Position numbers and translations under genes: made by a program
Assembly (NCBI RefSeq): GCF_006716355.1
Contig: NZ_VFOW01000001.1
Coordinates: 5,146,001-5,210,000 of the forward strand
Origin: Stackebrandtia endophytica
GTDB taxonomy: Bacteria > Actinomycetota > Actinomycetes > Mycobacteriales > Micromonosporaceae
Direction: 5' to 3'
DNA: 64,000 bases
Shown here: positions 20,936 through 31,690 of the stretch, one piece after another
How the letters are laid out: every line of letters begins with the position of its first letter
Position numbering within the stretch: position 1 is the first letter of the stretch
The notes under the pieces: model-generated
The model's input: only the letters and a program-made list of their open reading frames with translations
What the model was told of the DNA's origin: nothing
Databases searched by the model: none

Positions 20936-21892
20936 ATGCGCTCGACCCGATACCTCGCCGCGGTGTGCACCGCGGTCGTCGCCGTGGTCGCGACGCTGAT
21001 CCTGGCGGTGTCGACCGGCGAAGCCGATGCCGACCCGATCGAGACGCGGTCTGAGCAGACCTACAACGTCTGGCTGCAGAACATCGCCGGATGGAAGATG
21101 CACCGCGCCTCCACGACCAACGGTCTGGTGGCGGCGGTCACCGCCTCCATTCGGAATCGCGACGCCGATTTCGTGGCCTTCAACGAGATGTGCCGCCAGC
21201 AGTACAACGCGATCATCGGTGAATTGCGGGCGGCGGGCTGGCCGCAGGACTCGACGAACTTCGCCAGATTCGGTGCCGTCCGCTCCGACGTCTGCGATGG
21301 ACAGGACTTCGGCAACGCGATCTTCTCCCGAGATCCGTTGGGCAACGCCGAAAGGTTGCCACTGCCCGATGACGGTTCGGTCGCCGACCACACCGTTCTG
21401 TGCGCGCCACTTCAGGTTCAACCGACCGTGCGGTTCTGTACCACGCACATCACCACCAGCAACGAGGTGATCGACGGGGTGAAGGCCAACCAGCGGCAAC
21501 TGGACGCCGCCAACGTCCACATGGAGGACTACCACCGCGCCGGTGAGACGGTGATCATCGCCGGAGACTTCAACGCCCAGCCCAACTACGGCCGGATGAA
21601 CGGTTGGTATTCCGCCAATCTCGACACCCCGAACAATTCGGACAACACCGGGTACTACCGCGAACTCGACGACGACGATGAACAGCACTGCCTCGGGTAC
21701 GGCGAGCCCACCGTCGGCGTCGGCGACCCGCCGGGACAGTGCGTCCCGGAGAAGAAGATCGACATGATCTTCGTGCGCGAGAACCGAATCGTGGGTGACT
21801 ACTGGGCCGACGCATTGGCGATCTCGCAGAACTGCGGTGGTCCCTGCTCCGACCACAAGATCCTCATCGGACAGGTGACGGTCGCGGTCTGA
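20936..21892 (+). CDS. Secreted endonuclease/exonuclease/phosphatase family protein
   Basis: A 318-residue exported protein with a DNase-I-like fold. A signal peptide covers about residues 1-33 (basic start, long Ala/Val core). The catalytic landmarks are FNEMC (metal-binding Glu), CTTHI, GDFNAQPNYG (general-base region) and CSDHKIL (SDH motif) at the C-terminus. Six or more cysteines suggest disulfides outside the cell. Substrate could be DNA, RNA or phospholipid; the sequence does not decide. ATG 20936 has a GAGGAGAG ribosome site. It is followed by the cobalamin riboswitch of the next gene, from which it appears independent. Confidence 0.85.
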   Translation: MRSTRYLAAVCTAVVAVVATLILAVSTGEADADPIETRSEQTYNVWLQNIAGWKMHRASTTNGLVAAVTASIRNRDADFVAFNEMCRQQYNAIIGELRAAGWPQDSTNFARFGAVRSDVCDGQDFGNAIFSRDPLGNAERLPLPDDGSVADHTVLCAPLQVQPTVRFCTTHITTSNEVIDGVKANQRQLDAANVHMEDYHRAGETVIIAGDFNAQPNYGRMNGWYSANLDTPNNSDNTGYYRELDDDDEQHCLGYGEPTVGVGDPPGQCVPEKKIDMIFVRENRIVGDYWADALAISQNCGGPCSDHKILIGQVTVAV

Positions 21893-21933
21893 CCGGCGGT
21901 GAGACGGCTCATAACCGCACCGATGGGAGTGGA

Positions 21934-22060
21934 CAGCCGGTGCCTCGCCTGACATTCTGGCGAGGCAACATCACGAACTGTGGGGGAAGTCCGGTCGAAA
22001 TCCGGCGCTGACCCGCAACGGTGGATGCCTCTGGCATGAGCCCGAATACCCACAGCGCGT
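21934..22060 (+). ncRNA. Cobalamin (B12) riboswitch
   Basis: Conserved blocks are in the expected order: GGTGCC (21939-21944); GGGGAAG followed by CCGGTCGAAATCCGG; CTGACCCGCAACGGTGG; and the B12-box-like GAGCCCGAATACC. CTGTGGG (21978-21984) can pair with CCCACAG (22049-22055), closing the core. A 9-bp hairpin at 21941-21967 lies at its 5' side. Together these fit an adenosylcobalamin-type element that lowers expression when B12 is plentiful. It ends about 130 bases before the ATG of the toroid protein, leaving room for an expression platform. Confidence 0.88.
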
Positions 22061-22190
22061 GCACCCTGTCAACTTCCCGTCGAGGTCTACGGGATGGCAA
22101 CGTGGGTGCGCGTCGACGACCTGCCCCCACGTCGTCCCGCCACCGACGCTCCCACCCTGGCGGCCCGGCCTGCCCTTGAAAGGCCACCCC

Positions 22191-23342
22191 ATGTTGTCCA
22201 AAGTCCTGGGCCGAACCGCCGTCGTCGCGGCGTGTGTCGGCCTGTCGGTCACCCTCACCACCGGAACCGCCGCCGCCAGCACGTCGCAGGCGCGCGGTGC
22301 GGTCACCTGGTTGGCCGCGCAAGCCCATGACGACGGTGGATTCGGCGACGCCGGACTCACCGCCGACGCGATCTTCGCGTTCGTGTCGGCCGACGCCGGA
22401 TCGCAGTACACCGCCGCCGCCGTCGAGTTCCTCTCCGATCGTTCGGTCCTCGATGGATACATCGGCACCGCCGAGGCCGGTTTCCGGGCGCCTCAGACCG
22501 CCAAGATTCTGCTGGCCGCCCAGGCCGCCGGTGCCGACGTCACCGACTTCGGCGGGGTGAACCTGGAGGCCGCGCTGCGCGGGCTGGAGGGCACCGACGG
22601 ACGGTTCAGCGGCGTCCTGGCTCAGCAGCTGTCGGTGCTGGTGCTGGCCCGAAGCGATCAGGGCGTCTCCTCGGCGGCCGTCGATGCGTTGGCGGGCATG
22701 CAATGCGACGACGGAGGTTACAGCTGGAGCACCACCGGCGGTGCCTGCACCGGAGACGTCGACTTCACCGCCTACGCCCTGGCGGGGTTGCTCGCCGCCG
22801 GCGAGGGCGTCGCATCCGAACGTGCACTGAACTGGCTGGAGTCGGTGCAGGGTGAGTCCGGTGGGTTCACCGCCGGGTTCCCCGGTGCGCCGGAGAACAG
22901 CAACTCCACCGGCCTGGCCGCCGGCGCGTTGGCCAGTGGTGGTCGACAAGCCGCAGCCGATAAGGCCGTCGCGTTCGTGCTCAGCCTGCAACAGGGCTGC
23001 GACGCACCGGCCGATGAACAGGGCGGTATCGCCTACGACGCGTCGGGATTCCAGCCGGGTAACGCGATCATGGCCACCGCTCAATCCGTCACCGGACTCA
23101 CCGGGGAGTTCCTGGACACCTTGGACTTCTCCGATGACACCGCCGAACTGCCGGGATTGGACTGCGGTTCGGAAACCACCCCCTCCGAGGGTGAGGCGAC
23201 CGACGCCGCCGGCGGCCCGGTGGCTCAGCTGCCGGTCACCGGTTCCTCCCTGACCATCCCGGTGATGGCGGGAGTTCTCGCGCTGCTGGTCGGTGCGACT
23301 CTGCTGGTGGTCAGCCGACGTCGAGTCACCGCCACCGGTTGA
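22191..23342 (+). CDS. B12-controlled, sortase-anchored alpha/alpha-toroid surface protein
   Basis: A 383-residue exported protein. A signal peptide (cleavage near residue 28-30) is followed by four or more helical repeats with GGF/GGY turns (HDDGGFGD, CDDGGYSW, ESGGFTAG, EQGGIAYD). This is the prenyltransferase/squalene-cyclase type alpha/alpha toroid, also seen in vertebrate intrinsic factor and transcobalamin. C172/C186 and C270/C325 could form disulfides. LPVTG (347-351), a hydrophobic helix and an RRR tail form a sortase signal, so it should be linked to the cell wall. The upstream cobalamin riboswitch suggests a role in B12 capture; that function is inferred, not shown. Confidence 0.82.
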   Translation: MLSKVLGRTAVVAACVGLSVTLTTGTAAASTSQARGAVTWLAAQAHDDGGFGDAGLTADAIFAFVSADAGSQYTAAAVEFLSDRSVLDGYIGTAEAGFRAPQTAKILLAAQAAGADVTDFGGVNLEAALRGLEGTDGRFSGVLAQQLSVLVLARSDQGVSSAAVDALAGMQCDDGGYSWSTTGGACTGDVDFTAYALAGLLAAGEGVASERALNWLESVQGESGGFTAGFPGAPENSNSTGLAAGALASGGRQAAADKAVAFVLSLQQGCDAPADEQGGIAYDASGFQPGNAIMATAQSVTGLTGEFLDTLDFSDDTAELPGLDCGSETTPSEGEATDAAGGPVAQLPVTGSSLTIPVMAGVLALLVGATLLVVSRRRVTATG

Positions 23343-30341: not shown

Positions 30342-31517
30342 TCACGATGAATCTAGCGCTATGTCCACCGTTTGGGCCGCTGACACGACCGATTCAGGCG
30401 GTTTTATCGGATTGATGGCGGACCTGGCCACGTGCGGTAATCGCATGGAGAGATGCACGTGGTTGGTGTGGTCGCTGTTGGGATCACCACCGCCGCCGGT
30501 GTAGGCGACCCAACCTTGCGCGGGGTCCCAGTACTGGTGGTACCAGATCACATACATCACGCCCAGTGCGCTGGCGTTCTCGACGAACCAGGCGGCCAGG
30601 TTGTCACCGTAGGCCTTCTCCTCGCCGTAGGCGATGCCACCGAACCCCTGCGAGGCCTGCACCGAGAGGTCGCAGGCCCGCCCGAGCGGGTGCTCACCGA
30701 AGGTGCCACCCCGGTAACACGACACGTATCGCTGGAAGCCGCTGATCTGGGCCTGCTGCAACGCGTGCAGGGTCCGAGGGGTGAGACATCCGTTGGCCGG
30801 GGTCGGGTCGTCGACGGAACAGCTCTCGTAGGGGAGCGAGCCGTCGGGGTTGCGAGGTGCCGGATCGGCGGCCCGGAACTCGCCGGGCGAGGGGCCGGGA
30901 GTCGAGTTGCCACCGTTGGCGGCGATCGCCGACGCCGCGTCGTTGCGCGCCTGTAGGAGGTCGTCCATCGCGGTCTTGGCCGCTTCGACGGCGTCCTCGA
31001 GGCCCTGTTCCTCGGCTTCCAGGTCCAGCTTCGACTGCTTCAGCTCGGCCAACTTCGCGCCGCTTTGATCACCGAGGTAGCTGACGACGGTGAGCCCGTT
31101 GATCGCCTTGTCGGGAGAACCGGCCGCCAACAGCGCGCCCACCGAGGACAGCTGCTGATTCATGTAGATGCTCTCGGCGAAGTCGTTGACCTCCTTGGTC
31201 AACGACTTGATCTCGGCCTTGCTCTCCTTGATGGTTTTGGCGATGTCCTTCTGGCGTTGTTCGGCGGCCGCCAGGTCCTCCTCGGCGGCCACGTAGTCCT
31301 CGATGGCCTGCGTGAGGTCACCGCCGAGGTCGGATTCGCCCTCCACGGGATCGGCGACGCCCGGTGACGTCGTGAACATGATCATCGCCAGCGTCATGAC
31401 GAAACCGAGCGCCAAGAGTCGCCGCAGGGCGACGACCAGCGGCAGGTAGGCAACCGGTCCAGGTCGGCGCCGGTCGGGGTGACCGGCACACTGGTGCCTG
31501 TCAGGGGTCACATGCAC
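30342..31517 (-). CDS. Exported coiled-coil cell-wall protein with ARB-07466-like domain
   Basis: A 391-residue exported protein. A basic start and hydrophobic segment (about residues 24-50) act as signal or anchor. A long coiled coil follows (about residues 68-200, rich in EEDLAAAEQRQKDIAK repeats), then a Pro-rich linker and a C-terminal domain with SCYRGGTFGEHPLGRACDLSV and NSDHTNHVHLS. The two His/Asp motifs resemble metallopeptidase-like sites of the ARB-07466-type domain. It is likely a peptidoglycan hydrolase or its activator. The start is GTG 31517 or GTG 31511 (AAGGA upstream). A c-di-AMP riboswitch precedes it. Confidence 0.82.
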   Translation of the reverse strand: MHVTPDRHQCAGHPDRRRPGPVAYLPLVVALRRLLALGFVMTLAMIMFTTSPGVADPVEGESDLGGDLTQAIEDYVAAEEDLAAAEQRQKDIAKTIKESKAEIKSLTKEVNDFAESIYMNQQLSSVGALLAAGSPDKAINGLTVVSYLGDQSGAKLAELKQSKLDLEAEEQGLEDAVEAAKTAMDDLLQARNDAASAIAANGGNSTPGPSPGEFRAADPAPRNPDGSLPYESCSVDDPTPANGCLTPRTLHALQQAQISGFQRYVSCYRGGTFGEHPLGRACDLSVQASQGFGGIAYGEEKAYGDNLAAWFVENASALGVMYVIWYHQYWDPAQGWVAYTGGGGDPNSDHTNHVHLSMRLPHVARSAINPIKPPESVVSAAQTVDIALDSS

Positions 31518-31527
31518 GTCCTTCTCT

Positions 31528-31690
31528 TCGTCCGCCTACCGGGTTAGCTGTCGGGTTCGGGCCGAAGAACGCCCTACCGCAGTGCGCGGATTCACCCCGG
31601 TGCTTCGCACTGCGAAGCGGTGGGTCCCCGGTTCGCCTCATGGGGCGATTCGGCAGTGGCCGCCCTACGCGCGGTCGCGCGACGTCATGG
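31528..31690 (-). ncRNA. Cyclic di-AMP (ydaO/yuaA-type) riboswitch
   Basis: Read on the minus strand, the leader of the coiled-coil wall gene contains GAACCGGGGACCCACC, a hairpin GCTTCGC/GCGAAGC, then CGGGGTGAATCC, GGTAGGGCG, and the characteristic 3' block AACCCGACAGCTAACC followed by GGTAGGCG. These blocks in this order are diagnostic of the ydaO class. In actinobacteria this class is usually in front of wall-hydrolase genes, as here. High c-di-AMP should reduce expression. It ends about 10 bases before the start codon. Confidence 0.85.

Follow-up and report, generated by a model that had tools for sequence, protein, structure and literature searches.

The question raised by this locus is what a putative wall-anchored toroid protein does when its gene stands alone behind a cobalamin riboswitch. 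The gene and its product, both called P0001 here, lie in a 64,000-nucleotide stretch of the Stackebrandtia endophytica genome, hereafter the window. The analysis indicates that the locus is a real and well-supported lead: within a regulon for cobalamin uptake, P0001 is probably the part that captures the vitamin at the surface, a B12-repressed protein serving an importer encoded elsewhere, with binding by P0001 itself the step that we infer. The features in question are as follows.

21958–22104, plus strand: cobalamin riboswitch aptamer, AdoCbl type (RF01482 and R2 models)
~21961–22071, plus strand: conserved core of the riboswitch; the 3' hairpin, with loop CGAGG, ends at ~22104
22178–22183, plus strand: Shine-Dalgarno-like GAAAGG, 7 bases ahead of the ATG (read from the sequence)
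22191–23342, plus strand: P0001 gene for a predicted exported, wall-anchored alpha/alpha toroid of 383 aa (from the translation; ATG at 22191, stop ends at 23342)
22191–22277, plus strand: signal-peptide-like N-terminus, residues 1–29, cleavage near AAA-S (by eye from the translation)
22275–23168, plus strand: alpha/alpha toroid domain, ~residues 29–326, with Cys172, Cys186, Cys270 and Cys325 (AlphaFold2 model, fold matches, conservation)
23229–23339, plus strand: LPVTG sorting signal, hydrophobic stretch and basic tail (TIGR01167 above cut-off)

The riboswitch and the product of P0001

A cmscan search of the stretch 21850–22300 matched RF01482 (AdoCbl) at 21958–22104 on the plus strand with 41.1 bits (E 3e-6), below the gathering cut-off of 50. 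RF00174 scored the same site in a genome search at 30.9 bits, just below its cut-off of 31.5, and the riboswitch was not reported in the whole-window scan at Rfam's own cut-offs. The site was also scored with R2, a covariance model made from nine relatives' leaders, none from the S. endophytica genome, which gave 82.3 bits (E 6e-20), the next-best match in the window reaching 12.8 bits. A second model, R1, gave 87.4 bits with the site in its own training set. The alignment of eleven leaders, the window leader included, revealed the core GGGGGAAGTCCGGT...CGCTGACCCGCAACGGT...GAGCCCGA, and in 16 of the 28 predicted pairs at least one sequence was changed on both sides with pairing kept. Pairing of loops L5 and L13 (CCTC with GAGG) was seen by eye in the window riboswitch and was not visible by eye in the leader of locus L035, which holds the closest relative of P0001. 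A chance motif as the source of the apparent B12 control was rejected on the basis of the R2 score and the conservation of the leaders among relatives. The profiles identify the stretch as a cobalamin riboswitch of the AdoCbl type with a predicted response to AdoCbl, and control of the P0001 gene by B12 is almost certain.

The LPVTG motif occupies residues 347–351 of P0001 and is followed by a hydrophobic stretch and an RRR tail. The LPXTG model TIGR01167 scored 18.5 bits, above its cut-off of 15.9; NF058582 fell slightly below its cut-off (26.6 against 27), as did PF00746 by more (12.9 bits against 20). Together with a signal peptide recognized by eye and the two sortases encoded in the genome, these features are those of a predicted LPXTG sortase substrate. 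The best named family for P0001 was NF053823 (SCO2321_fam) at 93.6 bits, far under the cut-off of 300.

Sequence matches of P0001 to Prenyltrans and TED_complement were weak. The AlphaFold2 model of the segment encoded by 22275–23216 had a predicted local distance difference test score (pLDDT) of 93.6, a predicted template modelling score (pTM) of 0.90 and 13 helices. As modelled, the ectodomain is an alpha/alpha toroid, the fold shared with animal cobalamin-binding proteins. Its four cysteines presumably form disulfides; C172, C186 and C270 were kept in all 68 aligned rows and C325 in 46, with a gap in the remaining 22. An earlier note on this DNA had claimed a cobalamin riboswitch directly before the gene, an exported LPVTG-anchored product and a toroid of helical repeats, and all three claims were borne out by the profiles and the model.

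Predicted cobalamin uptake genes in the genome and among relatives

Three RF00174 sites stood out in the genome (5.66 Mb). C1:3470260, with 38.6 bits, alone exceeded the cut-off; the others were the window site and C1:435150 on the minus strand (27.3 bits). The fourth-best site scored 15.8 bits. The same three were recovered with R2, the C1:435150 site with 56 bits and the C1:3470260 site with 39.2 bits. The C1:3470260 riboswitch precedes genes for a binding protein, a FecCD permease and an ABC ATPase interpreted as BtuFCD. The C1:435150 riboswitch heads a cluster encoding, in order, P0002, P0003, a CbiQ-like T component, a double ATPase and the S component (P0004) of an energy-coupling factor (ECF) importer. 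The earlier note had proposed looking through the genome for a B12 importer with the same type of riboswitch, and two candidates were found, the BtuFCD-like one and the ECF one. The ECF genes lie 4.7 Mb from P0001 along the contig, or 0.93 Mb if the chromosome is circular. P0004 had no sequence match to any solved chain in a profile search of solved structures, and the B12 specificity assigned to the importer rests on the riboswitch and context.

P0002 is a second toroid of 447 aa, also with LPVTG, and is 31% identical to P0001. Its leader (L009:10190–10306, minus strand) had AdoCbl-II (RF01689) as best family of the Rfam clan, at 32.8 bits below the cut-off of 36.5, and the two toroids of one genome may be controlled by two riboswitch subclasses, AdoCbl-II and AdoCbl (RF01482).

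P0003 is a predicted exported protein of 305 aa. Its best named family, NF040672 (SCO2322), scored 28.8 bits, far under the cut-off of 85, and the profile of the partner family scored 199.5 bits. The member of this family from L042 was modelled, and the beta-domain fold of transcobalamin, intrinsic factor and haptocorrin took Foldseek ranks 1–17. The partner family, to which P0003 is tied by the family profile, is therefore likely, on the model of the L042 member, to fold like the transcobalamin beta domain. None of 56 members matched SLBB or transcobalamin Pfam families at E up to 5, and the partner alignment gave no useful profile match to solved structures. Family searches of the genome recovered two toroids related to P0001 and a single protein of the P0003 type. 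CbiC/CobH and CobS, the two biosynthesis markers tested, were not found, and three proteins with a B12-binding domain are encoded; this gene content fits a cell that uses B12 and is obliged to import it complete.

Linkage was evaluated in 79 loci from a scan of the GTDB genome collection, representing the best 80 of 184 relatives. In 67 of the 79 the toroid gene was immediately preceded by a riboswitch (63 of 75 without the four loci overlapping contigs used to train R1); an ECF S or T gene lay inside the locus in 59 and the partner domain in 63. In 16 of 20 smaller loci, counting the genome's own paralogue, Rfam models placed a cobalamin-class leader (E up to 0.01) ahead of the toroid on the sense strand, and 12 of these 16 leaders reached the gathering score. 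Toroid and partner were fused in one open frame in five open reading frames (ORFs; L029, L033, L060, L077 and L106). Nine toroid loci, L035 among them, were solo, with neither partner nor ECF genes nearby in at least 9 kb on each side; six had a riboswitch directly upstream, and in all nine genomes the partner was encoded elsewhere. Among 150 genomes of the order, 35 held both families, two the toroid only, two the partner only and 111 neither, so that toroid and partner occurred together in 35 of the 39 genomes having either. The broader NCBIfam toroid model found toroids in 28 of the 150, of which 26 had the partner and two (G026 and G133) did not. The earlier proposal of a putative role in corrinoid binding or salvage gains strong, independent backing both from this linkage of riboswitch and toroid and from the paralogue, which has an ECF importer, a beta-domain-like partner and a riboswitch of its own.

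Many of the main toroids among L036–L113 stop a few residues at most beyond the final cysteine and have no sorting signal; judged from sequence, toroids without an anchor are probably released and are possible B12 carriers.

Other arrangements were seen among the relatives. Micromonospora-type loci (L062, L063, L069, L072 and L110; ~9.7–14.3 kb) contain two tandem toroid genes ahead of the ECF genes; a separate cobalamin riboswitch precedes each toroid gene, and a partner gene follows each. Amycolatopsis loci (L064, L068, L083, L101, L102, L108 and L109; ~9.6–10.0 kb) have two divergent, back-to-back cobalamin riboswitches. One of them leads into a solo toroid that is apparently released, the other into a large toroid protein belonging to the ECF cluster and having two toroid domains in several loci.

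Proposed function and competing explanations

The evidence obtained by computation comprises the riboswitch, the fold of the toroid, the signals for export and anchoring, the cluster of second toroid, partner and ECF genes, the linkage in relatives and the B12-import gene content. P0001 is very probably part of B12 uptake, and direct corrinoid binding by P0001 itself is rather likely, as suggested by fold, linkage, fusion and co-occurrence. A shortage of coenzyme B12 inside the cell would lift repression by the riboswitch and allow P0001 to be expressed. The toroid would be exported and joined to the cell wall by sortase, its central cavity would bind cobalamin from outside, and the ECF importer, and perhaps BtuFCD too, would receive the cobalamin from the toroid directly or from the toroid acting with P0003. 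Repression and the final import steps are proposed because the behaviour of cobalamin riboswitches and ECF importers is established, while capture and hand-over are proposed from the four lines of evidence named for binding.

Several results qualify the reading of cobalamin capture by P0001. The earlier note had likened the fold to that of intrinsic factor and transcobalamin; the alpha/alpha toroid stood, but the closest solved folds to the P0001 toroid were squalene and terpene cyclases and not those carriers. P0001 had no PF01122 match at E up to 5; PF01122 matched 9 of the 68 aligned toroid rows, with a best E of 0.0072. The beta domain is absent from the P0001 chain, the single partner gene of the genome lying separately. 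P0001 and its Stackebrandtia albiflava homologue are also without the acidic loop that follows residue 139, as compared with 66 relatives, and depart at positions conserved in at least 60 of the 66 rows, including W80, Y99, G101, Q198 and R294. Finally, PF07678 (TED_complement) reached 23.9 against its cut-off of 22.

The lost residues and loop could mean an altered ligand range, or a solo form that no longer docks the partner. They speak for the explanation that survives best after cobalamin capture, namely that P0001, although a member of the uptake regulon, captures a different ligand (another cobamide, an incomplete corrinoid or cobalt, for example) or has a cavity that shifted in this lineage. 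The S. albiflava homologue (L035) is the closest relative of P0001, with 69% identity in the best segment and 72% in alignment A3; it also stands alone and keeps riboswitch and anchor. In a tree made by a quick method the pair sits on a long stem, which speaks for the same explanation, outside a 32-row clade holding P0002; long branches were flagged in this tree, the stem of P0001 among them. However, the four cysteines, D191, N236, T240 and Q298 are retained in P0001, and a cell without CobS and CbiC could make little use of cobalt or incomplete corrinoids. This explanation is unlikely.

It is very unlikely that P0001 has nothing to do with B12 binding and is a surface protein of a structural, adhesive or thioester (complement TED-like) kind, its riboswitch left from a lost operon neighbour. 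The TED_complement match and the position of the gene alone amid unrelated neighbours agree with it, but the riboswitch is kept in S. albiflava where the toroid is likewise alone. CGEQ is the internal thioester motif of complement and macroglobulin TED domains, and no motif of this type was read from the translation around the P0001 cysteines; a thioester domain was rejected for this reason.

The same lost residues and loop, together with the toroid that accompanies the importer, would be expected of a paralogue losing function with B12 control retained by ancestry. This is highly improbable, since the frame and the export and anchor signals are intact and the aligned identity is high to a homologue that itself has riboswitch and anchor. 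Nor did the quick tree support an origin of P0001 by recent duplication of P0002, P0002 falling in another clade (98% by the Shimodaira–Hasegawa-like approximate likelihood-ratio test, SH-aLRT).

A secreted enzyme like class II terpene/squalene cyclases, with incidental B12 control, is scarcely credible and was rejected despite the top fold match, because DxDD, the catalytic motif of these cyclases, is incomplete (its last Asp occurs in one of 68 rows, P0001 having DVDF with Phe there), P0001 is predicted to be exported and wall-anchored, and the genomic context of the family is B12 uptake, with an ECF importer and a transcobalamin-beta-like partner.

With B12-repressed cobalamin capture preferred, a wider scheme can be advanced tentatively, as something possible more than probable. 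It is that of an actinobacterial split, modular transcobalamin in which alternative toroid "cups", some anchored to the wall and others apparently released, work with a common beta-domain "lid" and a common ECF importer, the whole being controlled by B12 riboswitches. The solo anchored cup here would have diverged to widen or shift the cobamide range, and toroids released elsewhere would be diffusible B12 carriers like blood transcobalamin.

Known systems and neighbouring features

Little is settled about the means by which Gram-positive bacteria gather a large and scarce vitamin at their wall. BtuG, BtuH and BtuJ are outer-membrane lipoproteins with other folds, whereas a sortase-anchored toroid is predicted here, in a genome with an ECF importer. 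In the available text of PMC13398666 these Bacteroides lipoproteins, from riboswitch-regulated loci, bind B12 at the cell surface and raise uptake, and B12 binding by Bacteroides surface lipoproteins from such loci is likewise described in that of PMC8941943. Among the matches listed in open-licence PubMed Central literature, only Bacteroidetes lipoproteins were surface B12 binders with shown binding.

The closest precedent is Burroughs et al. 2007 (PMC1796856), whose available text describes exported bacterial proteins of toroid and beta-grasp (SLBB) domains, some wall-anchored, in operons with a CbiO-like ATPase and a CbiQ-like protein, and predicts B12 scavenging. The clade is placed there in low-GC Gram-positives, planctomycetes and euryarchaea, besides animals, and the term "riboswitch" does not occur in that text. 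The present system resembles those proteins in its exported toroid, beta-grasp partner and CbiO/CbiQ-like genes, and differs in being actinobacterial and riboswitch-linked with a solo toroid gene. As far as that text goes, the general idea of B12-scavenging toroids was thus already predicted in 2007, and what is new is the split, actinobacterial, riboswitch-linked and solo anchored form. Such a split system was undescribed among the matches listed in the open-licence literature, supplements and subscription papers being outside its scope. The toroid and partner genes are unnamed in the available texts of PMC2667541, PMC5997447, PMC4350170, PMC13398666 and PMC3766115, the supplementary regulon tables of the last lying outside the comparison. 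The nearest named families for toroid and partner, SCO2321 and SCO2322, carry no function in their names. The importer has S, T and ATPase modules like ECF-CbrT, an ECF-type B12 transporter (PMC5997447, available text), but its S component P0004 matches no solved chain.

Animal transcobalamin, intrinsic factor and haptocorrin are single chains that hold B12 between toroid and beta domain, in contrast to the two separate genes and predicted wall-anchored toroid here, and P0001 differs from them further in lacking the PF01122 match and in being nearer to squalene cyclases. If the proposal is true, the split cup-and-lid carrier would correspond in bacteria to transcobalamin and intrinsic factor, would bear on the origin of animal cobalamin carriers and would give a testable role to widespread exported "prenyltransferase-like" actinomycete proteins. 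The ectodomains are small and confidently modelled, so that a binding test is straightforward.

No B12 transporter was found beside P0001 in a Pfam scan of seven ORFs between 17.0 and 27.7 kb of the window, one of them without a match, in agreement with what the earlier note had said of the neighbours. By Pfam, the flanking genes are an unrelated set encoding RibD_C, Exo_endo_phos, alpha/beta hydrolase and GNAT-type proteins. The gene just 5' of the riboswitch (20936–21892, plus strand) is the Exo_endo_phos member (PF03372, 52.5 bits), with a signal-peptide-like start by eye. Farther along the window, a 391-aa protein encoded at 30342–31517 on the minus strand, for which Pfam gave no match at E up to 0.001, appeared by eye to be exported and coiled-coil-like, and its gene is directly preceded by a c-di-AMP (ydaO) riboswitch at 31519–31665 on the minus strand (83.7 bits).
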